DNA of 64,000 bases from Plazaster borealis (lineage: Eukaryota > Echinodermata > Asteroidea > Forcipulatida > Labidiasteridae), in assembly GCA_021014325.1 (NCBI GenBank), contig JAJGQC010000556.1:1-64000 (forward strand), read 5' to 3'. The position numbers and the translations under genes are program-made. Below are positions 1 through 64,000 of this stretch, piece after piece. Below the pieces are notes generated by a model, which searched no databases, had not been told where the DNA came from, and was given only the letters and a program-made list of their open reading frames with translations. Within the stretch, counting starts at the first letter, position 1, and every line of letters begins with the position of its first letter.

Positions 1-259
1 CAGATCTGAATGTAATCTTCCTCCTGCTCATATTCATCGCTATCTTCTATTGTCTCACAATACTCATCGTGTCTGTTCTGCAATTCCATGAAGGCAACCT
101 CAAATTTCCGGAATTCTTCTGTGAGCTCTTCTATGGAAGAATCTTGCTTTATGTGTTGTTCAAACACTTTCCTTTGTCGAGTAAATCTCGACTTGCTGGT
201 TCGTCATTTCGCTTTCTTTTCATCCATTTTGGCCTCAACTTGAAGAGTAAATTGAATTA
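1..259 (-). mobile_element. BEL/Pao 5' leader and start of gag, cut by window edge (arm A)
   Basis: This is the reverse complement of 25,146-25,400. It holds the untranslated leader and the first gag codons, read on the minus strand. The in-frame TGA eight codons after the gag ATG seen in arm U is present here too. The plus-strand open frame over this stretch is only an antisense shadow of gag and LTR. Confidence 0.8.
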
Positions 260-1154
260 TGGAAGGCCAGAGGATTTAAGAATGGAGTCGCACCCGGTTT
301 TAATGTATGAAGATTTTAATAATAAATCAGCATTCAATTCTGCAAAAACAAACAAAACCCAAGTACATGAATGAATGTACATTCCATATCTCAGAGTACC
401 AAGCAAACAGCCTTAACACGCAACAGCAAAGACACAGTTCAAACAACCGGCTAGCGAGTAATTTTAGAAACATAAATGATTTAAACGAAACATTAACTAC
501 TATTGCATCGACCAGCAGAAAGGTCAAGGGCCAGCAAACAAAGCCCGTCCAGCCAAACAGCATACAGTTCAGTATCAAAACGTAATCTCAAACAAAATAG
601 CGAAAACATCTCAAGAACCTGCTCATGTATACATTAGCTGATTCTGTGAACATAATGATATTATCATCTTAAACACAGATCGAGCATTGGCCCGATTTAC
701 AGTAAACAATCTTGAAGCTCCTTCAGACATACTTGCCGAATATTCATAAATTTCACATAGCAAGCAGCAATTGTAACTCAGAACCTTATAAACGGGATTT
801 GCAACATCCAAATATTTAACCTTTGAACTTGACGGCATCAAGTGCATGTATCAAATACACTCAGAACAACTTCTATGTATAGAAAAAAACGTTGGAATTA
901 TCTTTTTGAATACTACGATAAACTACTGGGAAGTCTCATCTGCAAAAATACACTTCATAATGACTCACCTCAAACATTTATCAGTAACTCCGTAAGCAGT
1001 CAGGCACACAATTTAGTTGTTTAGATAACCTTTTAACCAGTTGTAAATGCTACTGGCCTAAAAGTAGCCAAAGTTCCCGAAAGCGTTTATCGGAAAGCTG
1101 GCATAATAGCCTGCTTTACAGTTCATACAACAAAATACCTCGACGGGGCCAACA
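260..1154 (-). repeat. BEL/Pao 5' LTR (arm A copy)
   Basis: It matches the LTR at 24,242-25,145 in reverse orientation. It is about as long (about 895 bp) but noisy, with several small insertions. The outer edge near 1,154 is followed by TTGCC, where the other arms have TTGTT, the complement of the AACAA target duplication. Confidence 0.8.
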
Positions 1155-1438
1155 TTGCCAAAGACTCATCCTGTGCGCTATGACTCTGTTTTTTTCAGTT
1201 GGCTATCGACATTTCAATATTCTCATTCCTTTTCGTATTTTTCAGATTACAGTTGTAAATATTTGTTGTTAATTCTTTTGCGATACCTTTTGCGTAAAAA
1301 CACTGTTATATGTTTTTGGATTATAGTTAATGCTATTAACAAAATAAATGCACCCAGTGACCAGGGATAATAATGTGTTTGATCATTTCTGAAGCTGTAT
1401 GGTAATATAAGAGTCGCTATTATTTTCGCAATCGATAG
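1155..1438. other. Flank of the BEL insertion, probable intron (arm A)
   Basis: No gene is seen. This is the AT-rich host flank upstream of the next exon, equivalent to 23,984-24,241 and 50,788-51,046. It matches a dispersed-looking sequence containing AACAAAATAAATGGCCCAGTG. Confidence 0.5.
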
Positions 1439-1513
1439 AGATCGAGATGTGGAGTCTCAAAGCCATGGAGGTTGATCATTTAAAGAAGAGAGCAGAAAAA
1501 CTGAGGAAATTTG
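1439..1513 (+). CDS. Candidate exon, charged 23-residue peptide (arm A)
   Basis: Copy of the exon described at 23,914-23,983. An upstream AG (…ATCGATAG) and a downstream GGTGAGTT donor are retained. The peptide core KAMEVD and RAEKLRKFG is legible, but the middle is altered (DHLKK in place of DYEK). Confidence 0.5.
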
Positions 1514-1628
1514 GTGAGTTACACCAGTTTTTAACAAGCGCAGCAAAGCAGAAAGCAGGCCCACTTTTATTAGTTAAGCAATCAGCATTGTGCTTTTCAG
1601 CAGTGTATTCATCACACATCTCTTCCAG

Positions 1629-1700
1629 GGGTTTGTGACGAAGATTATTCTGAGTACGGCGCGCTGGACTATGAAGGCTGCTTGAATGTTACTGCATCAT
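1629..1700 (+). CDS. Candidate exon following a 115-bp intron (arm A)
   Basis: Copy of 23,741-23,808. The acceptor CTCTTCCAG is intact. The frame VCDED is followed by changes that break it. Confidence 0.4.
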
Positions 1701-2038
1701 GGTTGATACTCCCTGATGATGGCCGAAAAGAAGGTTAGACAAATGGAATAGATCTTCTCTGCATTGGCCACCATCGCATGGGGTCAAACAATGGAAACTT
1801 CGCTCAAAAAGAACGCACCACACACAACCCTCAGCCAACACGATGAAGTTCTTCATGCGTCTCTCAGTGAGGTCAAAGCTGTTTGTATTTTTGTGATGTC
1901 ATATGCCAGGGGTTTATTGCATTTTGTATAGCTTTGCTTAACAACTTCTGGTCCATACGATAATGCATTCAATTGCCAACCACAGAATATGAAGGCAATT
2001 GGGTCGGCCAGGAATTCTGAAAGGTTGTCGCACAGCAG

Positions 2039-2206
2039 TGGGAAGATTCGCAATGCCAAACACCTAAGGAGCACTCATTTGGCTTTTATACAAAAAAGGG
2101 TGCTTAAGTTTACAGAATGATTACAGAGAAACAAATACCAAGTGAACTTAATGATTTACACAATTAATCAACTACTTCTTGGATTATATATAAAGGAAAT
2201 TGTCAA
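2039..2206 (+). CDS. Candidate exon, degraded copy (arm A)
   Basis: Copy of the exon at 23,278-23,437. The CAG acceptor is kept, but several indels (for example extra bases around 2,090-2,200) break the frame. Confidence 0.35.
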
Positions 2207-2297
2207 TAAGAAATTTGTCAATAGCTTTCAGTCATGCTCTGTAAAATGAAATCTTTAAGGTAATAATGTAGAAAGCTTTGTAAAATTAACCTTTTAA

Positions 2298-2692
2298 AGG
2301 CACTGACACGCTTGTGTAATTACTCAAAATATATATGTTAGCATAAAACTTACTTTGGTAACGAGCTGTTAACGGAGAGCTGCTGATAGTAAGTAAAACA
2401 CGTGAGAAACACCCTCTGAAGTAACGCAGTTTCTTGAGAAAGAGGTAATTGCCACCAAGAAGATGAATCTAAAAAGATTTCAGCCCGAAGACTCTTTTCA
2501 GGCAGAGCTCTGAAAAGCACACAGCATTTGTGCAACAAGGATGTTTTTTTCTTCATTAGCTTTTCGCAGTAACTCAGATGACCAATTGATCCCAAAATTC
2601 TTCACAGGCTTGTTATTTTATGCATATTTTCTTTGGGATATATTCAAGTGAGATTACTTATCTTGACAAATTAACAAAATGCATCCATGCCC
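2298..2692. mobile_element. TTAA MITE, long form (arm A)
   Basis: TTAA at 2,294-2,297 precedes AGGCACTGACACG; the right end is degraded (GCCCTAA). The body matches the copies at 22,821-23,196 and 51,846-52,216. Confidence 0.65.
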
Positions 2693-2842
2693 TAACACAA
2701 ACCCTTTCTGTGTTGTTTGGAGGCAAAGTGTGCTTCACGCTTCGAAAGGGTGTTAACATCTGGGCATTCAGTGGTTGTATGGCATGGGTAAGCATTGGTA
2801 ACGAGAGGGTTCGAAATTGTTCTTGATATTCTCTCTCATCAG

Positions 2843-3115
2843 GAAGCCATCCGACGCCCCAGCTCAGCTGAAGAAGACGATGATCGATGAACGCCCAGTT
2901 GAAGTCAAAGTTGAGCACCTTGCGAGACAAGGTACGCTTCCACTGGTGATCTTATGGTCTTCACACCAACGGCGGCGTTATCGTTGAGTGTAGACCGAGT
3001 TCATGGCAGTATACCTACTGAGAGTCAAAAAAAGAAAAGATCCATTTGAAGCTGCCATGGACCACATCAGTAAGAGAGGGATTGACAGAAGGGATCAGCA
3101 ACCTGATCACAGAAG
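2843..3115 (+). CDS. CEP95-like CH exon, badly broken copy (arm A)
   Basis: Equivalent of 22,453-22,679 and 52,359-52,585. The acceptor CTCTCATCAG and the donor GAAG/GTGTGC are recognisable. The exon is 46 bases longer than the 227 bp of both other arms, owing to scattered insertions, and no long frame remains. Confidence 0.45.
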
Positions 3116-3634
3116 GTGTGCGCAGCAAGCTGCAAATGGATCATCGGGTATTGTCCCTGTTTTTTAACTTTTAAAACCACATTGCTCCAGCTCCAGGGTT
3201 ATATTTAAGTCTCTGAGTTCTAGTTAGGACATCTGGCTTGAAGAGAGAAGCATATTATGCGTGAGTTTGTTTCTATCGCCAAAGTACTGTGTTATAATGA
3301 CTGGCTAATATTTGAGCTCTTTGCTGAAGAATTGTCACAACAAGCCTTGATTTGCAGTAATTTCTGTCAGGACAACTCTTTAAAACTCCACAGTTGGCTT
3401 TCATGAAGTACTAACTTTTGGTGTTGGCTTCATTTCCTAATAGCTCCTCCAATTGTACAACCATATAGAAGAGAAGCACATTAAGGCAGTGAAAAGTGTT
3501 TCAAAATCATGCTTATAGTTGCTGTGATTCAAAAACCTTCATCTCCAATCACTTATGCCACTGAAGTCCGCACTCTGTTCACAAGCACTGTGAAATAATA
3601 ATGTGTACGCCTGTAGCTGTAATCCCAATCATAG

Positions 3635-3777
3635 ATGGCATCTGATCTCGATTCGACACAATGACGAGAGTCTTGATTCACGTATCTGCCATCACGGACG
3701 CTCTTTAGGAAGAGTTTGGACTCAGAGGTGAGGGAAAGACAATTATTACAGACCAACTCGTTAATGGTTATGAAAGG
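3635..3777 (+). CDS. Candidate exon, broken copy (arm A)
   Basis: Equivalent of 21,824-21,956. It follows AATCATAG. The stretch coding SAITD is legible, but indels break the rest. Confidence 0.35.
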
Positions 3778-4578
3778 CACGAAACATACTCTCATTTTAC
3801 GTTTATTTTCAATTCGCCTTGCAGAGTTGAAGTGAAGGAACATTTTTCTGATATCAATAATCTTTTGATTTACATATTATTAATTTTGTTCATTATTTAG
3901 TTTACAACAAAAACTTCCATAAAAGATTAAATGTACATAAAATAGTGCAAGCAGATTACAAATGTGGTAAGACATTAGTGTCCCCAACACACACGGCGGC
4001 TGCAGCAGAAGCCTATCCAGATGTAAATATGGTCAGCTTTGTTTAACAGTTAAAATAAATATTATAGCTACCACACTTCAGAGATAGTTTCCTCATTTGA
4101 CTGGTGGAATACGCCATTCACATGTCATACTTATTTTGCTTACGAGCATTGAGTTCTGACACTCCAAATTTTAATATATAGGAGTTCCTATATTGATAGT
4201 CATAGGATGCTTTTGGGACGCTTTTGCAGCTATGCTTCAAGACGATTTACTAATAGATTCTTACTGCATTGAGTATTTATTGGTGCCACGTGTTATTAGC
4301 GCATTTATAGCTTGCACATCATTGACACGCACACGAAGTTATGAATGCAGGAATCGTAAAGCTGAGCCAACTTGTCGTTAATAGGGTCATCCAGCTATGT
4401 CTTTTTATCAAATGCTTATCAACTTTATTGATGAAATAAATCAAAACACCTGTTCAAAACTTTCAGCCATTAGTTATTGTTGAAATAAGCTATGAATCGC
4501 ATGAGAAATATCATTGTCAGCTGGACGCTATGTGAGATATATAAACAAATATAGGATGCATTTCATCTTATACAATGT
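3778..4578. other. Intronic sequence, no gene seen (arm A)
   Basis: AT-rich, equivalent to 21,075-21,823 and 53,223-54,008. It contains the short palindrome around TATAGGAGTTCCTATA. No supported reading frame. Confidence 0.5.
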
Positions 4579-4680
4579 AGCAGAATATAATCACATAATC
4601 TGGGACTGTTCCATTTTGCTTGAGCCATTTCAAGAAATGGGAACAGTCCAGATTTTCATCCTCACTTGATTATATTCTAC
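4579..4680. repeat. Hairpin inverted repeat (arm A)
   Basis: Arms AGAATATAATCA and CTGGACTGTTCC face their complements around a short loop. Same element as 20,976-21,074 and 54,009-54,110. Confidence 0.7.
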
Positions 4681-5062
4681 TCATAGCGCATAACCAAAAT
4701 TTGTGTATTTAATTTGTAAAACATCTTCCAGCCTGGATCTCATTTTTGAATGTATTATTTGTAGAAAATATGCAAAAAAAGTTGCAGTCTGTCAAATGAT
4801 TTACATTTTGCTTTTCTAAATTTGCTTTCCTTGCCTGAAGAAAGTGTACAAGTAATTTAATATAATGGTTTTTTTGAAACACTGATGATGGTGGTTTGAA
4901 TCTACATGATTGCAAAAATTGGCAGTACTCTATTTATAGCTCACACCATTAGCTTACATAATCAAAACATCCTCGAGCAGCCTAAGTTTGTCAGCCAATC
5001 AGAAGGCAGTGACTTCACAGCTGAGCTCATCAAGCTTGGTACGAAAGACATCTATCCCGCCA

Positions 5063-5213
5063 TCACATCCCTCTCAACGGCACATTTCTCAACGAGTACA
5101 TTTTCAATCGAGACATTTCTCATCGAGATATCTGCCCACCCAGACGCTTCAAAGAGATCATCCATCAACGAGATTGTAACTAAGACATCCATCATTCAGA
5201 CATCCCTCGATTT
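5063..5213. repeat. 15-bp tandem repeat, degraded copy (arm A)
   Basis: Repeats of the type CAACGAGACATTTCT, complement of the array at 20,480-20,616; about ten units with errors. Confidence 0.6.
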
Positions 5214-6065
5214 AGACTTCCAACCTTTGTAGGTGAGGAGAAGAGTTCAGCTGCGGGCTCAAACTTGGTAGAATTCACAAGATGCAGCAAAGAGCTTGCG
5301 GCTCAAAATGTTTAACGGACCGAATTTAATTTTTACAAGACCAGAATTGAAATGGGGAAGAACTTTTGTACAAAGTTTTCTAGCAAGGTAAACAGTTTTC
5401 TGTTTGAACAATCAATGAAAGAGAAGATTTGATCTCTTACTGGTAAGTATACTTGATTGTCAACACAGAGTCAAAGATTTTACAAGATTCAACTGCAAAA
5501 TCAACATTTGAACATCATTTCTTTTAAATTAAAGATAGTGTACAGTGAGTGTATTATTATTCATTTGGAAGCAGCACAAGACAGGCCGTGGATGCTTGAA
5601 ACCGGGTCAGTGTTTTACTGGTCTCGACATGCTGTAAATGTCCACTGCCCCGACTCATGCGTCCAGTGTCACAATTCAAAACCATGTTAGCTCTTTCGGT
5701 CAGGAGTGGTATAGTTTGTCAAGCTTGTTCTCACCGCACACACTCTTTTGCTTGCTGGAGATGTAGAACAAAGCAGCCATTCCAACAAGCTTTTCTCTAC
5801 AAACTGCATCTCTTTGGAAATTTCTCGTTGCCTGGTTCATACTTCCCGCCCGTCCTAAAATCAGACTGTTCTAAGAGGATAATTTAAATTTACTTCCTCC
5901 CCTGAGTTATTTTCATCCTAATAATTCTTTTTTGTAGATATCTGGGTTACTAAGAGCTATCTTGCCCGATTTTCAGGCATATTTTGCTCTTCACACGCTT
6001 CATCTTTTGAGCTTTTTTCACTATCAACAATAATTTGTATCCATACCTCCATCCCATCTTTCCAG
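5214..6065. other. Intronic sequence, no gene seen (arm A)
   Basis: Equivalent to 19,671-20,479 and 54,623-55,428. The short open frames here are not conserved between arms. Confidence 0.5.
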
Positions 6066-6260
6066 GACCAATCTCCTCAAGACGCATCCCAGATGTCTGA
6101 GCCATCGTGTTGTTTCAGTTCAACACTCATAAATGACTCCTGGACGACAGACTATAGAAACTCCTTGTCATCAAGCCCCAAGCGCTTTCTCAGGGTGGTC
6201 GATCTCCAACCAGACTTAGATCCCTCAAGCAGACAGTAGGAAAGAGGATCTTACTTACAG
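6066..6260 (+). CDS. Candidate Gln/Ser-rich exon, broken copy (arm A)
   Basis: Equivalent of 19,497-19,670. Acceptor CCATCTTTCCAG and donor ACAG/GTAAAT are kept, but the exon is 21 bases longer and the frame is broken. Confidence 0.45.
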
Positions 6261-6879
6261 GTAAATTGATTCTGGTTCTTTGGTTGTGTAAGCAGAAGGG
6301 TGGCCACAACTTTTTCTGATACCCTGCAGAAAGCCCTGAAAATAAACTGCTCCAATCTTACTGGTAGATGGAAAATTTCGAAAGTCGCACCTGAGTTCTC
6401 TCCTACAGGTCGGTTTCTAATAGCGCAAGCCAGCTAGGGCGGAAAATTTACAGGTCATGAACCATCTGGAGGCTCCAACAAGCTGAGATTCTTCAAATTG
6501 GACCAGATTAGGGTCCGGTCACACAAAATATAGCGACCAAAGTGATAGGATATCACAGAGATGAAGATCAGAATAATTTAATTCAAACACAATAGAAATA
6601 CTGTAGTTTCAATTCCGCAGATAAGTCAAATCAAGCTTTAATTCAATCCTCATTAAACTCCTCAAATCATTATTTACAATATCCATTCTTCCATACTCAA
6701 CACCATTGTTTTCTGTTGTTTCCACAATAGATAGATTGTAGTTACACATTTATATGTGTACCTAGTTTTCACATTTGTCCAGTCTTGTAAACCATGAATA
6801 ATTTGCATGACAAACCGCTTCTTCTTCTTCGCAGAGGTATATACTTAATGACATAGGCACCATTTGTTCCTTGGCAATA

Positions 6880-7440
6880 TCCACTAACCTCTTAAACCAC
6901 ATAGCGGTATTGCGATTTGAGCTAACAACAATATCCACTTTAAAATCCACAAGCGATAATAGCGCCTTTTCGCCCTAAAAATACTGTCAACTCCCCAAAA
7001 TCCACAAGGTCAAACTGAGGTACCTTCGATCCCAAAAATATACGTGGTCAGAACGCTTAGAGTAGTCCTTCCTCTAATAAAGCCCATTGGGTAGGAGTAG
7101 TTAGTTGTGTAATACAAAAAACCATCCAGATCTCGATAGTTCTTTATGCTCCTCGGTCATAATCAGCTTCTGCAGATGATCATAACTCATTGCTGGCATT
7201 TCCTTGAGCAGCAATTTGGGTACTCCCGAGTAATATTCAAATTAACAGCTCCTCCAGTATTGAAATTTGCTCCCCGAGTACACAATTTACCCACACATTT
7301 CTCCAGTATTAAAAATTTGCCTCCTTCCCAGTAATAATTTAGCTCCTCAACTCACAAATATTAACTGTCTAGACATAGCCCATTAGCTCTCAAGTGTTTG
7401 GCTCCCAAATATAAATCTAGCTCTCCAGCAGCTGAGCTTC
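6880..7440. repeat. Two degraded minisatellites (arm A)
   Basis: The first part (to about 7,060) matches the 62-bp repeat at 18,795-18,980. The second matches the GGAGCTGTGGAGCTA repeat at 18,395-18,690. Both are shorter and noisier than in arm U. Confidence 0.5.
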
Positions 7441-7654
7441 AAATATACAATTGTTCTCACAAGTTTCAAAGAAAGGATGGGGAAAATCCACAGCAGAAGC
7501 AGTGATAATTGGTTTTATCCTCAAGAATGTAAACCAGTGAATAATTTCTGTAATATTTAGTATCATGCTCAATATCTCTCTGTTTTCTTGGATCAATAGT
7601 GAAATGACAATAACAATGCACTCTTGGGGCCTGAAGTCAGGCAACTGTATTGTC

Positions 7655-8495
7655 AGACTGGAATTCAGCTAATCAGTCAGAGAGTGTAGAAATCTCCAAA
7701 AAGTTAAAAATTATTGATATTAATCAAACCGCGCGCTTGACGACACAAAAACCACGCTAGAATTTAGGGTTGCACGCCCTGTAGTCAACATTGGCTGAAA
7801 TTAATCTCCACGTTCATGTTGAACACTGAAGCAAAAATCACATTTTATACAAGCCTACACTGGAGCAAATGAGCTAAATTACTTTCTAACATCTTCAGAC
7901 ATTGTAAGAATAACCATTATCCCATTAAAATGAAGTTACATTTGAAATGTGTGAATATGAGTTTAATCAGTTAACTCAAAAATTACTTCGTATGGGTAAG
8001 TCTCACTTCTACTTGCATCAAAAGATTAAAACTATACATTAAAAATAATGTAATTTACTTCATCACAAATAGTAAGCCAGGCTCACAATTCAGAGGCAAT
8101 ACCATTTACCAACACCTGATCCAATCATACAATCAACAATCCCTTACAAAAACACTCCTATAAGAATGTTATAGGAATCTTGTAGAATCGAGAAGTGACG
8201 AAAAATCTATAAGAATCCTATAGAACTCATCGAAATCATATAGGACTGTAAAAAAAATTCCCGCCCATAGATAGACTTTTTTTGTAAGGGACAACAACGG
8301 CAGATCGCCATCTTGGATTCTATTACATACATAGTTAGCCTGTGCTTGACATGTATTCACTATATGAACACGCGTGTGTTGGTAACAATAACATTACCAT
8401 CATGCAACAGTTTAGACATTTTTTCGAAAGAAGTGTATATTGCCACAGATAAACCCCCGGAGGAGAGGCGTGAAACTTAATCATCTAAAGAACCT
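7655..8495. repeat. Module copy 1 (arm A)
   Basis: From ATTCAGCTAATCAGTCAG to AATCATCTAAAGAA. It equals the reverse complement of 17,444-18,208 and the single copy at 56,795-57,560. Confidence 0.65.
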
Positions 8496-9189
8496 GACAT
8501 AAACAAATTTGAAAATCTCCCTGATTGCAGAAACTGTTTTCTTCATGTTTATTGTAATTTAAATATTTCCTGATTGCTTGCAAAGTCTTCTCCTGACGTT
8601 GCTAGATGCAATGTTGGCAGCTCTGTATAGCTCGGTCAAAGAAAACTTATCGACATGGCGGTGAAGTTTGTATAATTTTAAAACGATCAATGGCTTATTG
8701 TCACCAGTTTAAATGTAATTGTAATGGCTGGCCAGTTTAGTGGGCCAGGCGTTGTACATGTAATAGTGAAACAAATTCATTCCACTGGTACTAAATGTAG
8801 GTAGAGCACACAGCCATAAATGGTGTGGCAGCTACTGCACATATCACCACCAGTTTGAATGCAATCTGGCTGCAGAACAGATGCTTTATCACCAGTTTAA
8901 TGTGTACAACATCGTTCCAAATCCGGCGTGACATCTCGGCAAATGCTGCAGACAAAACTGCCAGAAGGTGGTACAAACAGTACAAAAGTACTTAACCCAA
9001 TATGATGTTAAAAATATTTGGGAGGAACTTGTTCAACAGAATAAAAAAACTTAGCTCAGTATAGGAAGGCAGAGGGAGAGCTAAAAACTGACAACCTTAC
9101 CATGACAGAAGCTACCCTCGAGGTTCCCTTTCGAGTCAATAAAGAAAATTGATAGGAGCCAAACACTGGCCTAATCCGAGTTAAAGCGG

Positions 9190-9715
9190 CTCAGTAACAA
9201 ATGATTGTCAATCTTACCTTTTTTCACAGCTCAGCCTTGCTGTTTTAAAAGGCTCAGCATAACACGAGCTGATCATGACGCGAGGTTTGAATGGAGCTAA
9301 AGTGAGTTCATAAATAAATGAGTCAATCTTATTTTACGGGCTCAGCAACTCAAGCCAAAAGTGGATCAGTAAACAATGAGCCAACTTTGCCTTCGACGGC
9401 TCTCAATCCGCAATGAAAAGCGGCTCAGCAACACAAATGAGCAAACTTATGCTTTTCTTCAACGCTCAACTGGGCCGACAGCCAAAAAGTACAGGCTTCA
9501 GTAAACAAATGAGTCAACTTTTACCGACCATCTGCCCATCAGCCTGAAGCCAAAGTGGCTCATGTAACAAAGTGGAGCTCACAACTTATGCCTTATCACG
9601 CTCAGCCTGAGCCAAATGGCTCAGTACTGAAAGTGAGCCACTTCATGGCTCACAACCTGAGCCAAAAGTAAGCTCAGTTAAACAAAAATGAGTTAATTAT
9701 GGCTCTGTCGGAGCT
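9190..9715. repeat. GAGCC/GGCTC minisatellite (arm A)
   Basis: About eight to nine degenerate units containing CTGAGCCAAAAGTGGCTCAG-type sequence. Mirror of 16,355-16,830; absent from arm W. Confidence 0.75.
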
Positions 9716-9744
9716 TATCTTTCCCCAGTGTATAATATTGTCAC

Positions 9745-16342: not shown

Positions 16343-16354
16343 TATACACTGGGG

Positions 16355-52216: not shown

Positions 52217-52358
52217 TTAACACAAACTTTCTGTTGTTTGAGAAAGTGTGCTTCACGCTTGAGTGGTAAAACAATCTGGGCACCAGTGGTTGTATTATGT
52301 CAAAAGAATTTGGTAACTAGAGGGTCTCAAAATTGTTCTTGATATTCTCTCTCTTCAG

Positions 52359-53085: not shown

Positions 53086-53222
53086 ATGGTGATCTCGTGA
53101 GACCCGGACACAATGACTAGAGGAACGGCATCTGCCATCACGGACGGTCTTGAGGGAAGAGTTTGGACTTCCAGAGGTGGGAAAGACAATATTACAGACC
53201 ACCATTTCAATGCATATGAAAG
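53086..53222 (+). CDS. Candidate internal exon (arm W)
   Basis: Copy of 21,824-21,956 after GATCATAG. Four extra bases break the frame, and the donor reads GGCAACG instead of GGTACG. Confidence 0.4.
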
Positions 53223-54008: not shown

Positions 54009-54110
54009 GCAGAATATAATCACATACATTCTGGACTGTTCCATTTCACTTTGCTTCGCCTTCAAGAAATGGAACAGTCCAGATTTCTCATCTCATGATT
54101 ATATTCTACT
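54009..54110. repeat. Hairpin inverted repeat (arm W)
   Basis: GCAGAATATAATCA…TGATTATATTCTACT with inner CTGGACTGTTCCATTTC and its complement. Same element as 20,976-21,074. Confidence 0.75.
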
Positions 54111-54477
54111 CATATGCATCAAAAATTTGTGTATTAATTTGTAAAACATCTCCATCTGACCATTTTGAATGTATTATTTGAGAAAATATGGTGAAAAAGG
54201 TAGTCTGTCAAAGATTTACATTTTTGTTTTCTCTCTCTAAATTCTAGTTTTCCTGTTCTGAAGAAAGTGTACAAGTAATTTAACATAATGAAGTTTTTTT
54301 GAAACACTGGATGATGGTGGTTTGAATCTACATTTCAAAATTAAGATCTTAATGATAGTCACACCATTAGCGACATATCAAAACACCTGAGCCAGCTTCT
54401 AACAGCCAATCAGAAGGTGACTTCACAGCTGAGCTCATCAAGCTTGGTAACGAAAGATGCCTCGCCACGGTTGATTA

Positions 54478-54622
54478 TCCCTCCCTCAACGATTCAACGA
54501 GACATTTCTCAACGAGACATTTCCTCATCGAGATATCCTCAACGAGACGTTTCTCAAAGAGACATCCATCAACGACATTTCTCAACGAGACATCCATCAA
54601 CGAGACATCCTTTCTCGACGAG
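54478..54622. repeat. 15-bp tandem repeat (arm W)
   Basis: CAACGAGACATTTCT units, about nine, complement of 20,480-20,616. Confidence 0.75.
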
Positions 54623-55428
54623 ACTTCCAAACCTCAGTGAGTGAGAAGAGTCTAGCTGCGGGCCCAAACTTTTGGTAGAATTCCACAAGATGGCAAGAGC
54701 TTGTGGCTCAAAAATGTTTAACGGACCTCTGAATTTAATTTTTTACAAGACCAGAATTGAAATGGGAAAGAACTTTTGTACAAAGTTTAGCATGTAAACA
54801 GTTTTCATTTGAACAATCAATGAAAGAGAAGATTTATCTCTTATGGGTAAGTATACTCTGATGCCGAACACAGAATTAAAAGATTTTACAAGATTCGAAC
54901 TCAAAATCAAACATTTGAACATCATTTCTTTAAATTAAAGATAGTGTACAGTGAGGTATTATTATTCATTTGAGCAGCACAAGACAGCCGGACTTGTCCG
55001 GTCATAAAGTTTACTGGCCCGATGCTAAAATCACTGTCCTTGGACCTGTGGTCCAGTGTCAAATTCAAACCATATAGTTCTCATCATAAGGGCAGGCTGT
55101 CTGGGTTTGTTCCTCACCCACACACTCTTTGCTTTGCTGAGATGTAGAACAAAGAGCCATTCCAACAGCTTTTTTCCACAAACTGCATCTCTTGGAACTC
55201 GTTGCCTGGTTCATGTTTCCTCTGTCCTAAAATCTAGACTGTTCTAAGAGGAATTTAAATTTTGCCTTCAGCTCCTGAGTTATTTTCATCCTAAATAATT
55301 TCTTTTGTAGCCTGTTAAGAGCTATCTTGCCGGATTTTCAGGCAACATTTTGTTTCACACGTTTTATCTTTTGAGTTTTTTTCTAACATCAAAATAATTT
55401 GTATCCATACCTCCATTCCATCTTCCAG
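54623..55428. other. Intronic sequence, no gene seen (arm W)
   Basis: Mirror of 19,671-20,479. Confidence 0.5.
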
Positions 55429-55601
55429 GAGCAATCTCCTCAAGACGCATCCCAGATGTCCAGCCATCAAAGTTGCTCAGCTACCACCATGACCCTGACG
55501 ACAGACCAGGAAAAACCTTGTCATCAAGCCCCAAGGCTTCAGGGGTGGTCGACTCAACCACTAGATCCCCAAGCAGACAGAAAGAGGATCTTACTCTACA
55601 G
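55429..55601 (+). CDS. Candidate Gln/Ser-rich exon (arm W)
   Basis: 173 bp between CCATCTTCCAG and CTACAG/GTATCT, one base shorter than in U because of a homopolymer loss, so its last third is shifted. First two thirds read QSPQDASQMSSHQSCSATTM. Confidence 0.5.
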
Positions 55602-56114
55602 GTATCTGATTCTTGGTTCTTGGTTGTACAGCAGGGTGGCCAACTTTTTCTGATTCTGCTGCAGAAAGTTCCCTGAAAATAAACCAATCTTACTGTGGCG
55701 GAAATTTGAGTCATACCTGAGTTCTCTCACAGGTCGTCTTCAATAGCGCTGCCACCAGACGGAAAATTTACAGGCCTAAACCACCGGAGTTCCGCCGTTT
55801 AGATTCTCGAATTGGTAGACTAGGGTCCGTCGTCAAAATATATGACCAAGTGATAGGATAATTCAGAGATGAAGACGAATAATTTAGTTCAAACACAGAA
55901 TGGTTTCAATTCTGCAAGATAGTCAAATCGTTTTAATTCAACTCACAAACTCCTCAAATCATTATTTACAACATCCATTCTTCCATACCAACAATTGTTT
56001 TCAGTCGTTGCAATAGATAGATTGTAGTTACACATTTATATGTACTAGTTCTCTAATATTTTCCAGTCTTGTAAACCATTAATAATTTGATGGCAAACTG
56101 CCTGCAAAGGTAAA
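55602..56114. other. Intronic sequence, no gene seen (arm W)
   Basis: Mirror of 18,981-19,496. Confidence 0.5.
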
Positions 56115-56610
56115 TATACTTAAATGATACTAGGCACCATTTGTCCTACAATATCCACTAATTTAAAACCACAAAGTAGTATTGCGCCCTTGAGCTAACA
56201 ACAATATCCACTCCTTAAAATCCACAAGTGATACTAGGCGCCTTCGTCCTATAAAATATCAACTCCTTAAAATTCACAAGTGAAACTAGGCACCTTTCGT
56301 CCTAAAATATACGTGTGAACCCTAGAGTAAACCTTAATAAAGCCTACTGGAAAGTATTAGCTAGTTTGTAATGGCAACTATCCAGATCTCGATAGTCCTT
56401 ATTGCTCCTCAATGGCTAACTAGCTCCTCCCGTATTACTGATCATAACTTATCTCTACAGCTCCTGAGTGTTAATTTTACTCCCGAGTAACAATCTAGCT
56501 CCACAGCCCCTCCAGTCAACTCCACAAATATTAACTTAGAATAGCTCCACAGCTCCTCAAGTGTTTGGCTCCCCAAAATATAAATCTAGCTCCACAGCTC
56601 CTCAAATTAC
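56115..56610. repeat. Two minisatellites, contracted (arm W)
   Basis: 62-bp repeat (56,115-56,310) then the AGCTCCACAGCTCC repeat (56,410-56,610), complement of 18,795-18,980 and 18,395-18,690 with fewer units. Confidence 0.65.
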
Positions 56611-56794
56611 ATCTCACAAGTTAAAGAAAGATGGGGAAAATCCACACAAAGCAGTGATAATTTTATCCTCAAGAATGTAAATTCTAGGAATAATTTCCTG
56701 TAATATTTAGTAACATACCTCAATATCCCTCTGGCTTGATCAACAGTGAAATGACACAATAATGCACTCTTGGTTTGAAGTCAGCAACTGTATT

Positions 56795-57560
56795 GTCAGA
56801 CTCAAATTCAGCTAATCAGTCAGAGTGTAGAAATCTCCAAAGTTGCACTATTTATACTAATCAAACCGCGCCTTACGCACACAAAAAGTTATCATGCTTA
56901 GAATTTAGGCCACACCCCTAAATAATGTTGGCTAAATTAATCTCCATGTTCAAGTTGAAAACCAGCTCAGAAAATCACATTTTTATACAAGTTTACACTG
57001 TATAAAATGAGCAAATTACTCTTTAACATCTATTTGTAAAATAACTATTCATTAAAGGAAGTTATTACTTGAAGTGTGTGAAATAAGTGAGTTTAATCAT
57101 AAACGTAAACAAAACCATTTTCATTGATAAAAAGATGTGTGATGTCATCTAATTAATATGCACGACTCAGGCAATCCCTGATGAAGCAGACGATAAGTGC
57201 ATCATTTTTATACTTAATTTCTTTACTCAAAAGTCTCACTCTAATTTGCATCAAAAGATTAAAGCTATACATTATAAAATAATGTAATTTTACCATCACA
57301 AATAAAGGTGTTTTTTGTGGCTCACAAACCAGATAATAATTTACGAACATCTGACTAATCATAGCGAACAATAATAACGGCAGACGCCATCTAGGATTCT
57401 ATAGGGCCTACATAGACTGTGCTTGACATGCATTCACATATACACGTGTGTGTTGGTAACAACGCCATTACACGTGAACAGTTTAGACATCGAAAGAAGT
57501 TATTATTACACTTAAATCCCTGGAAATATATGCTGTAAAAGTTAATCATCTAAAGAAGGG
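56795..57560. repeat. Module, single copy (arm W)
   Basis: Continuous from ATTCAGCTAATCAGTCAGAG to AATCATCTAAAGAAGGG. The minisatellite and second copy present in A and U are absent. Confidence 0.8.
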
Positions 57561-58745
57561 CATTATAAAGGTAAGATTGACGAAATGGGAATTGAACGGT
57601 GGCATTTTGTCACACAGCCTTCCTCTAAGACTTTGCTGTCCTCAGCAAATTTAAAATAACACAAATTCACAAGTTAGCAAGTGCTGTATGTATGCATATT
57701 GCAAGTAAATTCATATTCACTATATACAGTTTACACCAAATGTACATACACTGTACACCATATTTACAATAACAATTAACATCAATTAAATTGTTTTGGC
57801 CTGACTCTGTCTGTACATTCGCCCTTTTACTGGAAATGTTTGTCTTTTCCTCAGTCAAGTTCAATAATTATGAATAAGATTAATATATATTACAATATTA
57901 CTTATTCAATTATAAACACAATGTTTCACTCAGGCTTGTTATTGCCACTGTTACTCAGTCAATAATTAGTCATAACTACTCTGTTTTCTTCTTAGCTCTT
58001 CAACTAATTATTATTATACACGTCCAATCCTACTTCTGTACTTAGGTAGGTTTGAGTCACTGGCACTTTCTCTCAATGTACATAAATTTAGTATTAATTT
58101 AGGAATAACATACACACAAAGTATTTTGTCTCATGGGAAAACTTCCTTTTAACATGTTACAAAGTTTATCTGATTAAAATAAATGATTCAAAATGTACAC
58201 TCAAACCTTGACTCACAGTCAAACTGCTGATACTTTATACATGTCTTTATACTGAGTGCTAGACATTATTTAATAACACTCTTCTTATTTACTTATTTAT
58301 TTATTCCTCCTTATTTAATTGGATATCATAGACCTCGCTTTGTGACGCCATGCCGCATAAGCCTCCCCTGTTTGTCGTATGACTTGACACTGTATTCTTC
58401 TGGTTACCTTCACCAATTTATTCCTTATGAGTTCCTCTACTTTGATTGGTTTCATTTGGTTTGTTGTTGCTTATCCCCGTCGCTGCTGCTATCACTTTCA
58501 TTGCCGCTCTCCTCTGGTCTTACTAAGTAACCTTTTCCTCGAGGGACTTTCGGTGGTTCTTTCATTGACCTCCTCCTCCAGCTCTAGGTCGGAGGCCATT
58601 AGGAGACGGCAGCCTCCGCAGCACGTTCCTCCTCCTCCTCCTCTAGGGTTGTTTGGGGAATTACTTCCATTTCAAGTCTGGGTGTTTCCGGTGCTGGTTG
58701 GGGGTTTGTTTCTGTGCCTGCTGGGGGCTGGTGCCTGCTGGTGGC
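57561..58745. other. No gene supported; repeat-derived flank of Gypsy (arm W)
   Basis: Mirror of 14,399-15,591, including TTATTTATTTATTC and CCTCCTCCTCCTC runs. The last 60 bp is the minisatellite (GTGCTGGTTGGGGGTTTG) into which Gypsy inserted. Confidence 0.45.
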
Positions 58746-58927
58746 TTATGTACAATGCATGAGGGACTCATTGACACTGTTACTTGTGTGGTGGTCTGTA
58801 GAGTACTGCTTTATTAATCACTGATCATCTTTGAGGAGGCAAGCTTCCTGGGTGATGATTCCATTGTCTCATATCACATTACACAACTACTGCCTACAAC
58901 ATGTGTTATATGACACAGCTTGTTACA
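58746..58927 (-). repeat. Ty3/Gypsy 3' LTR (arm W)
   Basis: 182 bp; begins (minus strand) TGTAACA after the purine run CAGGGAGA and ends GTACATAA, a few bases short of the TACATAAAACA end seen in U. Confidence 0.75.
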
Positions 58928-59323
58928 TCTCCCTGTTTTTCAAAGGTTTCTGTTTGTAATTTAATAATTACTACAGTTGACAGGATTTAATATAATCAAG
59001 TACATAACAAATATTCCGGTACAGTATTGGTTTCAGAGTTGTGTATTCATTTGAGTTTGCCTTCAGTATAAATTTTCAAAATTGGTTTTACATTGATTTG
59101 ATGACAACTAATATTAATAAACAAAACTTGTTTGGTTTCAGCAACTTATTTTTAATTTTACATATAAACTTTCTACTACTACATATTCTAACAATCTATC
59201 CGTATTATAACATGAAAGTCAAATCCAGCATTCATATTCATAGTCTAGTCCATTGTTTTAATGGATTTCAAATATTTGCAATATTTGTTTGCATTTATTT
59301 GTTTGACATCCATATTATTTAGA
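58928..59323 (-). other. Gypsy 3' untranslated region
   Basis: No coding frame between the integrase stop and the LTR. Contains the TATTAATATTAGTTGTCATC stretch shared with arms A and U. Confidence 0.6.
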
Positions 59324-59641
59324 TTAGTGGCTTATTGGTGTGTATCTGTCAGGTGGTTTGCTTACCCTGCCTGATTTGGTTACATATTGAGTTTGTGGTT
59401 GGTGGTTTGTTTCGATTATACCAGGTGTATTTTGTTGGTTTTCTATTTCCCAATCTAATTGGTCTTCCATTTGAGTGGCTTTTGTTTGTTTCAAGTCTCT
59501 TCGGTTGCTTGTAAACACTGATCCACCTGTTGTCTTGACAATATATGATCTTGGTTTGTTACTATTATCTATTACAACAGCTGGTTTCCAAGTTTTATCA
59601 CATCTTACTAAAATGCTTTGACCTTTGTGTAAGGGTGGCAA
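59324..59641 (-). CDS. Ty3/Gypsy integrase C-terminus
   Basis: 105 residues: LPPLHKGQSILVRCDKTWKP-type block followed by SYIVKTTGGSVFTSNRRDLK, the chromatin- or DNA-binding tail typical of Gypsy integrases, and a Gln/Pro-rich end with RVSKPPDRY. Stop at the element's 3' side. Confidence 0.8.
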   Translation of the reverse strand: MPPLHKGQSILVRCDKTWKPAVVIDNSNKPRSYIVKTTGGSVFTSNRRDLKQTKATQMEDQLDWEIENQQNTPGIIETNHQPQTQYVTKSGRVSKPPDRYTPISH

Positions 59642-59824
59642 CTCTTTTGTCCCTGCATCATAGTATTTCTTTTGCTTTTCGGTTTTGTTGTTTTAACTTT
59701 TGCTTCACACATTTTACGATCTCTGGTTTTAGTAGTGTTGCTTTTGTTGGCAGAATTGTGTTTAGCAGTTGTACAGGTGATTTACCTATACCTTGGATCG
59801 GTGTGTTCCTGTAATCTAGTAATG
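59642..59824 (-). pseudogene. Gypsy integrase, shifted linking segment
   Basis: Coding continues here in other frames (PIQGIGKSPVQLLNTILPTK-type reading) between the core and the C-terminal block. Confidence 0.5.
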
Positions 59825-60298
59825 CTAGATTAAGGTCTCTCCTGGCCTTTTGCCTTTGATTAGCTGTTTTGCTATCCCCACTGCTTTCTCAGCCTTTCCA
59901 TTGCTTTGTGGGTACCTTGGTGATACAAGTGTATAATTGAATTTCCACTCTTTACTGAAGTTAGTGAATGTTTCACTTGCATACTGGGGTCCATTATCTG
60001 AAATCACTTCTTCTGGGATTCCATGTCTAGCGAAATGTTGTTTACACAATTCTACAACTTTCTGGCTTGTGGTGGAGACTAATCGATTAAGTTCAAAGTA
60101 ACTGGAATAGTAATCAACAATTAATAAATACTGTTGTCCATCAATCTCAAACAAAGCTGTGCCAACCTTTTCCCATGGTCTGCTTGGTTTGTCATGTGAC
60201 ATCATAGGCTCTTTTATGCTTCGTTTTGCAAATTCATTACAGGTTGAGCACCTTTCTACTGCCTCGTGAATTTGAGCAGACATGCCTGGCCAGTACAT
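59825..60298 (-). CDS. Ty3/Gypsy integrase, zinc and catalytic core
   Basis: YWPGMSAQIHEAVERCSTCN is the end of the HHCC zinc domain. [20 protein letters not shown] and PQSNGKAEKAV carry the catalytic D, D and E. Well preserved for 157 residues; also partly present at 12,840-13,430 in U. Confidence 0.9.
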   Translation of the reverse strand: MYWPGMSAQIHEAVERCSTCNEFAKRSIKEPMMSHDKPSRPWEKVGTALFEIDGQQYLLIVDYYSSYFELNRLVSTTSQKVVELCKQHFARHGIPEEVISDNGPQYASETFTNFSKEWKFNYTLVSPRYPQSNGKAEKAVGIAKQLIKGKRPGETLI

Positions 60299-60457
60299 TA
60301 TATTCTAGCGAGGCTTTTGCTTTTTTCGATACCTTGGTGGGTTTGATGGATTTTCTTTATCATTTCATTTCTCATTGAATTTGGTATTATTACTCTATTG
60401 CTTCTGAATACCAGGTGGTCTTCTACTGTTATTTCTTCTCTGAACGACCAGTATACT

Positions 60458-61066
60458 CTAATACTTGAGTGCACATCTTGTTTTGTCTCTGGCCATCCTG
60501 AGTGTATTACCTCTTTTAAGAGACTGTAATTCTTGGTCTTTGTTTGTCTCTCCTTTGAGTTCAGTTAATTTATCACTTGACATTGGTAAACATTCTACCA
60601 TGCATATTGGTATGTCAAGATCTCTTGTGTGATCACACAGTGGTACAAAATTTCTACTTAGTGCATCAGCTACATGCAACTGTGTGCCTTTTACATACTT
60701 GACTTTCAGATTATACTTTTGCAAGTTTAGTAGCATATCTTTGTAGTCGCATTGGTGCAGTGTGCAATGGTTTCTTAAATATTGTCTCCAATGGTTTGTG
60801 GTCAGTTTCACTTCAACATCCCGTCCAAAAATATATGGGTGAAATCTTTCACATCCAAATACTATGGCTGCTAGCTCTTTTCAATTTGCGCCCAGTTTTG
60901 TTGCGTTTTGTGAATGCCTTTGAGGCGTACGCTACTGGCAAATTTTCTTGTAGTAGCACTGCTCCAGTCCCTAGACTGCTTGCATCACAACTCAGAACGA
61001 GTGCTTTGTCACATTATAATACTGCAAGATTGGAGCTTTTGTTAGCATATTCTTGAGCTTTTGGAA
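60458..61066 (-). CDS. Ty3/Gypsy RNase H
   Basis: Two frames: a first half around 60,880-61,060 with the LVLSCDASS-type start, and KLTTNHWRQYLRN…LNLQKYNLKVKYVKGTQLHVADALSR, whose V-x-G-x-x-x-x-V-A-D-A-L-S-R end is diagnostic. Confidence 0.8.
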
Positions 61067-61122
61067 ACTTTTGTCATGTTCACTATGCCATTGCCACAGC
61101 GTCTCTTTCTCTGTTAGTTTTC

Positions 61123-61677
61123 TCAACGGGCTGTTACATCTGACAAATTCCTTATGAACTTTGCAAGATAGGTCACCATACCTAAGAATTGCATCACTTC
61201 TTGTTTGTTCGTAGGTTTTTTCCTTTGTTTGATCGCTTCAATTTTGGCAGGATCTGGCTTTAGGCCATCCTTTGATAGGATATGTCCCATGTATTTTACT
61301 TCACTTTGTCTGAACTTACATTTCTCTTTGTTCAGTGTGATATTCAGTTCTTTACATTTTTTGAGAACTTTCTCTAATCTTTCATTATGAGTGTTTTCAT
61401 CACTCGCAAAGATTACTATGTCATCCATGATAACTTCTACTCCGTCCATATCTACGAAATACTCATTCATCAGTCGCTGGTATATTTCTGGTGCCACTTT
61501 ATTCCAAAAGGTAATCTCAGAAACTTGAATCTACCCTGTCCTGTATTAAAAGTGCATAATTTTGAGCTTTCTTCGTCAAGTTGGACTTGCCAATACCCCG
61601 CATTTGCATCCAACGCTGTGAATATGGTCGCTGTTGGCAGTTTATCAGTAATCTGTTCGATCGCTTTCATAGGGTAG
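61123..61677 (-). CDS. Ty3/Gypsy reverse transcriptase
   Basis: TIFTALDANAGYWQVQLDEE carries the first catalytic Asp; FKFLRLPFGIK follows; after a frameshift near 61,490, VEVIMDDIVIFASDENTHNE has the MDD catalytic pair with Ile in place of the usual Tyr. VKYMGHILSKDGLKPDPAKI and QEVMQFLGMVTYLAKF complete the palm/thumb. Upstream RT blocks (61,678-62,110) are in several broken frames. Confidence 0.88.
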
Positions 61678-62117
61678 TATTTATGCTCTAGAGCATTGTT
61701 TAAGTTTAGTGGATCGATACAGATTCTTACATTTTTCTGTTTGGTTTGACTATAGTCACCAGGAGCTTACCCACCTGCATGGTCCCGTGACTCTTCTATC
61801 ACGCCCAATTTCTCCATTCTCTTTAATTCTTCTCTGACTTGTTTTCTTAGGGCTACCGCACTCTTCTTGGTGCGTGCACTACTGGTTTAGCATTTTCTTT
61901 ACTTTTAGATGCTGTTTTCCTGGCATACATCCATGACCCTGAAATACTTCTTTGTATTTATCTTCTACATTTTGATTCAGCATATCTACTTGCTTGATCA
62001 GATTGAGATCTTTACATGTTTGTAGACCTCGGAGTTACTTTTCCTTCCACTACTAACATTTCTACATTTTGGAATTTTCCTTTATGCTCACATGTTAAGA
62101 CACATTTCCTTTAGGTA
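61678..62117 (-). pseudogene. Gypsy protease-RT linker and RT start, broken frames
   Basis: Coding traces on the minus strand (LGVIEES-like, then LNNALEHKYYP) in more than one frame. Confidence 0.5.
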
Positions 62118-62474
62118 TTATGTATGACCACTGTATGTAGTCAGTCTTACCTTAGATTTTGTCAGGTCTTTTGATGTACATATTTGCTTAAACATACTTT
62201 CGGGCATAACATTACATTGGGCTCCAGTGTCCAGTTTAAACTTAATTGTCCCTTTCTTTCTAGCGTTCATCAGTGTTAGGTTTACGTACTCATGCATTTC
62301 CTGACTGAGTGAGTTCTTCAACGACAGTTCATCTTCATCTGTGTCCGATTGTTCAAACTGTAGGTGCAGTTCCTCCATTTTCTGTTTGGTTCTCCTTCTT
62401 GCTGTCTTTCTTGGTCCGCTTGATGCTGTTTTCTCCTCTCGACTGCGTGGTGGAGTGGTAGTTGCTCTGCACAT
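62118..62474 (-). CDS. Ty3/Gypsy aspartic protease
   Basis: KFKLDTGAQCNVMPESMFK contains the D-T-G-A active site. The preceding Arg/Lys-rich segment links to gag. Confidence 0.85.
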   Translation of the reverse strand: MCRATTTPPRSREEKTASSGPRKTARRRTKQKMEELHLQFEQSDTDEDELSLKNSLSQEMHEYVNLTLMNARKKGTIKFKLDTGAQCNVMPESMFKQICTSKDLTKSKVRLTTYSGHT

Positions 62475-63196
62475 CTTGGCGAAGTGATTTTGCTTCCTAC
62501 AGGTGCTGCACTCTTTGCCGTGATGCTGACTTTGTCATCGGCCATGTTCTCGCCCACATCTTCTGCAGTCAAATGGCTTGTCATCTCCTTTTGCTGAGGA
62601 CTGTTTCTTACTGTCACGCCTGTGTTTCATTTTAACAGCGTTTACAGTTGGATTCTGTCCACTGATGACTCCCATTTGTGTTTGTGATTGCTCTGCAGCT
62701 CTGCATGTATCTATTGCTTTGGGCAAATCCAAATTTGTTTCTCGGAGGAGTTTTGCTCTGACTGAATCTTTCTTCATGCCTACTACCAATCTGTCTTTGA
62801 TCAAGCTGTCTGTGAGCTCACCAAATTTCACATACATGTAGCTATCTATGGATTGTCCATCTTCTGTGACGTGGTGTTGAAAACATGCCGCTCATATGTG
62901 ATGTTTTGCTTGGGTAGATAGTATCCATCCAGTTTCTTTATGAGGAGCTTGAGGTCCGTCGCGCCTTCACTGTCGGTATGTTCCAGTATTTCATGGACGC
63001 TCTATTAGTTCTGCTCCAGCTACATGTAAGAATACGCCACTTGTACATCTTTATCTTTGTGTTCAAGTCCTGTTGCTTTCGTGATAGAGGCCGAACGCTT
63101 TCTTCCATTTTTCCATTGTGTAGCCGGTGTGGTTCCTGGCGTGAACGACTCTGGTGGTTTTAATCCATCCACTCTTTTCTTACTCGCTTCAGCCAT
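62475..63196 (-). CDS. Ty3/Gypsy gag
   Basis: ATG at 63,196. N-terminus MAEASKKRVDGLKPPES, then a capsid-like region with frameshifts, then ELTDSLIKDRLVVGMKKDSV and LLRETNLDLPKAIDTCRAAE, a conserved Gypsy gag block. CRRCGREHGR begins the zinc knuckle, which continues in another frame toward 62,470. Confidence 0.82.
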
Positions 63197-63220
63197 TTTC
63201 AGAACTTGTTAAATTTTATC

Positions 63221-63233
63221 CCTTCTGACACCA
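63221..63233 (-). other. Gypsy primer-binding site, tRNA-Leu type
   Basis: Minus strand TGGTGTCAGAAGG directly after the 5' LTR, complementary to the CCTTCTGACACCA 3' end expected of a leucine tRNA. Confidence 0.75.
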
Positions 63234-63371
63234 TGTTTTATGTACAATGCATGGAGGGACTCATTGGACACTGTTACTTGTGTGCTGGTCTGTAGAGAAC
63301 TGCTTTATTAATCACTGATCATCTTTGAAGAAGCAAGCTTCCTGGGTGACTTTCCATTGTCTCTTATTACA
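63234..63371 (-). repeat. Ty3/Gypsy 5' LTR, internally shortened
   Basis: 138 bp against 182-190 bp for the 3' LTRs. About 50-60 bp of the start-proximal part is missing near 63,363, where CATTGTCTC runs straight into TTATTACA. Confidence 0.7.
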
Positions 63372-63420
63372 TCTTCCACCCTTACCCTCTACACCAGGGG
63401 TCTGATGACACCGCTTGTTA

Positions 63421-63560
63421 CTGTTGGGGTGGTTGTTTCTGGTGCTCGTTGGGGTGTTTCTGGTGCCAGTTGGGGGTTGTTTCTGGTGCCAGTTGGGGGT
63501 TGTTTCTGGTGCCTGCTGGGGGTTGTTTCTGGTGCTCGCTGGGGGTTGTTTCCTTCGCCT
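63421..63560. repeat. Minisatellite flanking Gypsy (arm W)
   Basis: About six units of GTTTCTGGTGCCAGTTGGGG (22-24 bp). The same repeat flanks the other side of the element (58,680-58,745; 14,399-14,470), so the element sits inside it. The minus strand is open across it, coding Pro/Gln/Asn/Thr-rich protein. Confidence 0.8.
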
Positions 63561-63599
63561 TCTCCTCTTCCATATCTTCTTTCTCTTCATTTCTCTTCA

Positions 63600-63835
63600 T
63601 TTCTGGCGACACCTGTTCCACCTGGGGTTGAGTCCGTACCCTCCTCCATCCTATTTGGATGTTCAGCTTGGTAATGACGCTCAGGGCGAAACGTCGCAGA
63701 TAGGTCTGGGGACACCTATGTCCCGGTATTCCATGTGTGTCATCCTGTGTCGGTCGGTTGAATCTCTTTCCGAATTTCTTTCCACATTCTGTGCATGTGA
63801 AGCTTCGCCTCTCGTTTAGGATTTCCTTTAAATCC
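63600..63835 (-). CDS. Possible zinc-finger-like coding fragment
   Basis: Minus strand reads SFTCTECGKKFGKRFN, then GHRCP, resembling a C2H2 finger in which the first histidine position is Gln. It lies upstream of the Pro/Gln-rich minisatellite frame in the same direction. Could be the N-terminal part of a mobile-element or host protein; the frame is not continuous. Confidence 0.3.
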
Positions 63836-64000
63836 TGGAGTTCTACTCCATTGGGAAGTCCATGTCTCTGTACATTACAGAAAAAAACACATCATTAGTA
63901 TCTCTTACAAACTTGACTGAGATTTGATTCTGGTCTTGTAAACAAATTGTAGTCCAGTTAAAACTTTGAGCTACAAGCCTTGCTCTTGTGGATTTCCTCC
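63836..64000. other. Right edge of window, no gene seen
   Basis: AT-rich. The last 60 bases resemble, in shared words, the sequence at 20,330-20,420 and 54,660-54,760 (GGTCTTGTAAACAA, CTACAAGCCTTGCTCTTGTG), another dispersed repeat copy. Confidence 0.4.

Follow-up and report, generated by a model that had tools for sequence, protein, structure and literature searches.

The window examined here is the first 64 kb (64,000 nucleotides) of contig JAJGQC010000556.1, designated C463 (1,137,548 bp), in the assembly of the sea star Plazaster borealis (GCA_021014325.1; 560.6 Mb, 717 contigs). The window carries a multi-copy segment with a BEL/Pao-like long terminal repeat (LTR) element and the edge of a Gypsy-type element, laid out three times in alternating orientation. 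Arm A (1-12.8 kb) reads forward, arm B (12.8-38.6 kb) is reversed, and arm C (38.6-60.35 kb) reads forward again, the three being joined at two turns. Copies of the segment elsewhere in the genome fall into groups, and groups 1 and 2 are used to type the arms in the following list of features.

1..12818, plus strand: arm A, the outermost end of C463; a noisy group-2 unit running from the BEL edge to the Gypsy edge
12814..12821, no strand: turn 1; the strand changes from C463:298,137 on the A side to C463:298,344 on the B side, offset 207 nt
12815..17253, minus strand: outer end of arm B; a noisy group-2-type flank with the Gypsy edge and a 58-bp minisatellite
17254..35300, minus strand: clean middle of arm B; group 1, with the core, the BEL-type LTR element and the inner flank (upper border approximate, set from the marker switch and the change in noise)
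35300..38600, minus strand: inner end of arm B; noisy, its markers leaning to group 2
38594..38610, no strand: turn 2; from C463:272,474, the end of B, to C463:272,491, the start of C, offset 17 nt
38610..60350, plus strand: arm C, a group-2 unit
60350..64000, plus strand: ordinary contig sequence past the fold; a Gypsy-type element on the minus strand, starting in arm C

In a self-BLAST of the window, arms A and B match each other in inverted orientation, with 79.6% identity between A 1-7,982 and B 25,404-17,877 and further matches at 72-78% that reach A 12,265 and B 13,644. Arms B and C are likewise inverted: B 33,670-38,295 matches C 38,955-43,524 at 91.2%, and the matches go on at 89.6-95.3% as far as B 12,814 and C 60,350. 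Between A and C, the main matches are direct, at 73.5-80%. The longest self-matches measure 1-8 kb, far above chance, and they contain the two anti-diagonals and the forward-reverse-forward pattern that an earlier note on this DNA had described. The turns, which that note had placed at 12.82 and 38.59 kb, correspond to strand switches at ~12,818 and ~38,600 when measured against unfolded copies. Its third arm, drawn from 38.6 to 64 kb, is present in forward orientation and is shorter than claimed, the matches stopping at 60,350. From there to 64,000, counting matches of at least 150 bp, a single short one is found elsewhere in the window (63,234-63,421, 197 bp).

Across 30 open reading frames (ORFs) searched, the Pfam domains above cut-off are RVT_1, rve, DUF5641 and DUF1759. 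An RVT_1 domain lies at 61,123-61,530, and a gag-asp_proteas match below cut-off at 62,118-62,534. No host gene is recognised in the segment by Pfam among these ORFs, the other matches being sub-cut-off ones to gag-asp_proteas, Integrase_H2C2, Zn_ribbon_15, zf-C2H2_15 and DUF4218. One ORF compared with solved structures gives nothing convincing (best E 0.042), a tRNA scan finds none, and there is no Rfam match at the gathering threshold. The BEL/Pao-like LTR element (DUF1759, DUF5641) lies at 24,241-31,333 and at 46,108-50,788, with an LTR pair at 95.6%. It is common to group-1 and group-2 copies, with a 1.9-kb deletion in C464, C342, C463:727k and arm C. Its frames in B and C are split into shorter pieces; the copy in contig C612 has an 851-aa open frame. 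A repeat of ~260-390 bp occurs several times per unit (window 22,814-23,200, 36,490-36,746 and 37,121-37,494, with their counterparts) and at many chromosomal places, at 92-95%. It is probably an element resembling a miniature inverted-repeat transposable element or a short interspersed nuclear element.

Copies of the segment and types of the arms

The core of the segment, taken as window 18,600-24,500 (5.9 kb), occurs, arms B and C aside, at no fewer than 18 other places in the genome, with at least 91% identity over 4.7-5.9 kb; the number is a lower bound, as the best 40 of 18,807 genome candidates were scored. Of the 18, C463 contains three (at 286, 537 and 727 kb), all oriented like arm C. 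In same-strand pair comparisons, group 1 comprises C488, C672, both copies in C612, C652:161k, C562:68k and C562:303k, and group 2 comprises C464, C342, C463:286k, C463:537k, C463:727k and C332. A third group contains C650, C22 and C652:124k, with C562:110k assigned by distances. Among the compared pairs, substitutions amount to 0.2-1.1% inside each of groups 1 and 2, and to ~2-2.5% across the two. The eighteenth place, C364, is noisy and carries the group-1 state at 89 of 95 markers.

Counting arm C, the C463 core copies at 50.5, 286.5, 537.0 and 727.3 kb share one orientation and are spaced ~190-250 kb apart, which suggests a large amplified array. Core copies are also present on small contigs and at C22:13.41 Mb.

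The arms were typed at 96 core sites that separate seven group-1 from six group-2 copies on a group-2 reference, and at 95 such sites on a group-1 reference. On the group-2 reference, arm A is group 2 at 89 of 96 sites (one group 1, six other), arm B is group 1 at 95 (one other), and arm C is group 2 at 91 (two group 1, three other). Noisy copies were simulated, six per group per reference: those from group 2 are called group 2 at 86-90 of 96 sites, and those from group 1 receive 14-26 group-2 calls. On the group-1 reference, A has 65 group-2 and 17 group-1 calls out of 95, and an earlier count with arm B itself as the group-1 reference gave 59 and 21 out of 95. Simulated group-2 copies show the same bias on the group-1 reference (51-61 and 18-26 calls), and the group-2 assignment of A therefore stands.

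Arm B is not uniform along its length. The homology of all seven group-1 copies to B begins at 17,254, and to the left of this position lies the noisy group-2 flank with the Gypsy edge; none of the Gypsy-edge matches listed adjoins a group-1 core copy. On the far side, past the inner noise border, group 1 accounts for 13 of 15 sites and group 2 for none. The markers and the start of homology at 17,254 thus make B a mosaic, whose clean part starts where the group-1 homology starts.

The arms also differ in structure. Arm C lacks B's 24,538-26,479, a piece of the BEL element, and one copy of a 0.77-kb repeat together with an adjoining stretch. Both absences are common to C464, which matches C in one piece over 57,974-49,066; as this clean copy shares them, C has the structure of a genuine copy. 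Arm A aligns unbroken to C463:285,572-294,335 and carries on to 298,137; the 0.77-kb repeat copy is present in it, as is the BEL piece as far as the arm extends (to 25,404). Since A has segments missing from C, the two are different copies as printed. The stretch C464:129,628-152,000 is structurally close to arm C and ends ~0.8 kb before turn 2; C464 may represent the locus at the start of C463, or an allele of it.

As printed, arms A, B and C are not one molecule: A and the outer end of B are of group-2 type and the inner end leans that way, group 1 makes up the middle of B, and A has sequence missing from C. Given these results and the presence of the core at so many other places, the statement in the earlier note that one locus is read three times lacks support for the sequence as printed and is too simple. 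A single molecule read three times, through two missed adapters or fold-backs and with its consensus later partly replaced, would be a sub-case of the assembly artefact proposed below, its odds being contained in those of that explanation. It would account for three consecutive alternating passes and for noise tied to the turns, and a missed SMRTbell adapter gives such reads, with up to 15 palindromes per read in amplified Arabidopsis libraries (PMC6218980, in excerpt). The sub-case is nevertheless doubtful, given the group-1 state of the B middle and the BEL piece and repeat copy that C lacks and A, as far as it reaches, retains.

Noise in the arms

Noise was measured per tile against clean copies, those of group 2 being used for arm A. 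As a yardstick, clean same-group pairs (n = 9) differ per tile by 0.07-1.65% substitutions and 0.06-1.6% indels (insertions and deletions), with an indel-to-substitution ratio of 0.4-3.0 in 15 tiles; one clean cross-group pair has 3.2% substitutions and 1.8% indels. Arm A is collinear with the clean C463:285,572-298,137 at 71-86% identity per tile, and its indel-to-substitution ratio is 1.8-8.8. A set of 11 tiles contains 3-7% substitutions and 12-24% indel bases, and over all tiles of the arm the total error is 14-29% per tile. Insertions lead in the eight tiles of 0.9-8.5 kb (9.7-15.8%, with 3.0-8.1% deletions and 3.4-5.8% substitutions), and deletions prevail in seven of seven tiles at 9.8-12.7 kb, reaching 10.8-18.2%. 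Indels several-fold commoner than substitutions at such a level characterise uncorrected long reads rather than evolutionary change.

The identities of 72-80% between A and B and of 90-95% between B and C resemble two ages, as though ancient inverted duplications had drifted to 80% and 93%. Such old natural palindromes have scarcely any chance of being the explanation. The indels of A are several times its substitutions, and its 89 group-2 markers make it a recent group-2 copy with noise added; clean copies of the Gypsy edge are 98.9-99.7% alike, and the compared group-2 cores are 0.4-1.1% substitutions apart. Ancient divergence of the arms is thus ruled out by the indel-led differences of A and by its group-2 marker sites.

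In arm B the noise is confined to the ends. The outer end (12.8-17.25 kb) has 6-16% error and is 84-94% identical to a clean group-2 copy in 10 main-match tiles, with indels dominating. The inner end has 9-12% error over 35.6-38.3 kb, and the last aligned piece, 38,404-38,594, is at 77.5% identity. The middle is 97.1-99.9% identical to C612 in 18 bins of 1 kb between 17 and 35 kb (the C612 sequence used for these bins lacked 1,192 bp near an LTR; the other tilings are independent of it). In arm C, tiled over all but 43.6-49.1 kb, the error starts at 6.6% in the kb next to turn 2 and is 2-4% in most of the tiles that follow; values of 10% and 6% occur at 53-55 kb, and at 59-61.6 kb it is down to 0.6-1.2%. 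The earlier description of arms differing mainly by small indels is accurate for A, for both ends of B and for most tiles of C; it does not extend to the clean middle of B.

Outside the window, the noise is paralleled in C364, whose copy (111,601-118,330 of 118,330) extends to the last bases of its contig. Against the clean group-1 copy in C612, identity falls from 96.5% to 85-86% towards this end, indels climb from 0.9 to 4-6 times the substitutions, and insertions prevail in the last three of seven tiles. As the end of C364 is raw-like, an unpolished contig end occurs elsewhere in the assembly, and contig ends may be unpolished more widely. With the exception of C364, the raw-read-type noise of A and of B beside the turns is absent from the other copies examined.

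The turns and the origin of the folded end

At turn 1 (~12,818), arm C and all seven other copies fetched, out of 11 listed places outside the window, read straight through. At turn 2 (~38,600), three of three copies read go straight (L042, which is C463:272k; L043, which is C488; and L044; C672 is among the three), and C463:272k, C488 and C672 agree with one another for ~2 kb across and past the point. At both turns this straight reading is that of other copies, not of reads of this locus. The offset of 17 nt makes turn 2 almost symmetric, within the published default for a fold-back, in which the second arm maps within 200 bp on the opposite strand; the near-symmetry is like that of published fold-back reads (PMC12870357, in excerpt). 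Outside the window, among the best 40 of 79 candidates, ~0.8-1.0 kb of the arm at turn 2 is present at 14 places, 12 with one arm and C612 with two.

Past turn 2, in L043 (C488:28,782-32,660) and L042 (C463:267,632-272,268), inverted repeats of ~0.9 kb (91%) flank a tandem array with a 130-bp unit (13.5 copies in C488), an arrangement that resembles a fold-back element carrying tandem repeats inside.

The segment of the window also forms a palindrome in C612:140,868-187,039, a stretch of 46,174 bp rebuilt from overlapping pieces (L012, L039-L041 and L013). Its arms, at least 23 kb each and 98.8% identical, meet at 163,912, and it is noisier near the centre, where the middle 8.5 kb are at 97.1%. 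Samples of 1 kb taken at mirrored positions ~63 kb out show no match. The C612 palindrome may be a real inverted pair or another assembly fold. The same turn as in the window is seen at none of the other places so scored, the C612 junction lying ~390-500 bp deeper. This junction falls within one arm of the ~0.9-kb inverted repeat.

Taken together, these comparisons of sequence argue that the left ~38.6 kb of C463 are probably an assembly artefact (probability about 0.87), in which a poorly supported contig end was folded back twice and paralogous copies were stitched together. The true start of the contig is probably near 38.6 kb, and arm C would be its true left part. To the left of this point, the assembler is proposed to have followed fold-back (palindromic) long-read sequence onto the opposite strand, giving arm B. 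Near 12.8 kb the path would have turned back again into arm A, which received almost no polishing. The clean group-1 middle of B may be due to overwriting by group-1 reads during correction or polishing, or the path may have run via a group-1 copy. Candidate sources of the folded sequence are a missed PacBio adapter, a nanopore fold-back and an amplification palindrome, in one multi-turn read or in several. A fold-back chimera or assembly error had been the preference of the earlier note as well, and it is backed by the indel-led noise in A and beside the turns and by the other copies that read straight. A raw-read error spectrum, as would be looked for in an arm lacking read support, is what A displays, with a similar spectrum at the end of C364.

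Excerpts of published accounts describe processes of this kind. Fold-backs form ~0.55-0.6% of nanopore genomic DNA reads, typically with fewer than half having more than 11 bp between the arms (PMC12870357). Missed SMRTbell adapters yield the same read shape (PMC6218980); missed adapters, strand jumps and chimeric reads are treated as assembly artefacts to be corrected, chimeric breaks in large repeats having initially been overlooked (PMC6977585). Like the fold-back long-read artefacts so described (PMC12870357, PMC6218980), the window takes up the opposite strand from a near-identical position, with at most a small spacer between the arms and without a recognisable adapter. Unlike them, it shows this in an assembled contig, twice in succession and in multi-copy sequence, with one arm partly of another group. 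The alternating passes of missed SMRTbell adapters or polymerase strand jumps (PMC6977585, PMC6218980) would equally give a forward-reverse-forward order, but here no adapter remnant stands out and the arms as printed are not one molecule.

Several observations weigh against the proposed artefact. Turn 1, with an offset of 207 nt that slightly exceeds the 200-bp default and rests on alignment ends in noisy sequence, is less symmetric than a perfect fold-back. Arm A holds sequence absent from C, and a single read through the three arms would need the consensus of C to have been overwritten. Error in A is highest on the turn-1 side and lowest in its initial kb (85.5% identity), unlike the rise towards the contig end in C364. 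The noisy inner end of B is mixed in type: its 19 sites on the group-2 reference give 11 group 2, five group 1 and three other, and the group-1 reference gives nine, nine and two. In a search for a SMRTbell adapter remnant, neither turn ranks within the ten top hits, and the best score in the window is 30 against 28 in a shuffled sequence (n = 1); no remnant thus stands out. Fold-backs are virtually absent from the PacBio HiFi data examined in the excerpted account of PMC12870357. Finally, the C612 palindrome may mean that inverted pairs really exist among copies of this segment.

These points bear on a natural origin, in which the window would be a real inverted array with poor coverage at its end: a group-2 unit, a group-1/group-2 recombinant and a group-2 unit, placed head-to-head and tail-to-tail. 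The segment is indeed multi-copy (at least 18 further core places), C612 has its palindrome, and the three arms bear the marks of different copies. Nanopore base-calling also loses accuracy at true inverted duplications (PMC7229812, in excerpt), which could explain the noise on the turn sides and the deletion-rich stretch at turn 1. The loss of quality from an inversion junction described there is matched by the deletion-rich 3 kb of A beside turn 1; different from it, A is insertion-rich and still noisy farther out, and the other copies have no junction here. Such an array is improbable. Normal-depth reads in both directions would be expected to have cleaned A, whose error stays at 14-29% per tile; the turns are absent from the copies read through (seven of seven and three of three), the C612 junction is displaced from the turn in the window, and B switches group at 17,254, just where its noise changes.

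Real ampliconic palindromes, such as those of sex chromosomes, have large inverted arms in a multi-copy region, and clean arms with substitution-led differences are expected of them. The window shares the large inverted arms and the multi-copy setting, but A lacks the clean, closely similar sequence, its 71-86% identity per tile being due to raw-type errors. A nested inverted triplication of paralogous units, with B as a gene-conversion mosaic, a palindrome that defeated sequencing and polishing, and C612 as a second such case, is very improbable.

In conclusion, the start of C463 should not be believed as a natural structure, and the ~38 kb at its left end would be best trimmed or masked, with the cut at ~38.6 kb. 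If the tail is left untrimmed, frames are cut up and copies are counted too often. The inflation of gene and repeat counts foreseen in the earlier note thus applies locally, to this contig tail, but the segment itself is truly multi-copy in Plazaster borealis. The approach is reusable: in a folded locus of multi-copy sequence, the other copies in the assembly supply both an error yardstick and marker sites, which help in distinguishing an artefact from a natural palindrome without reads.

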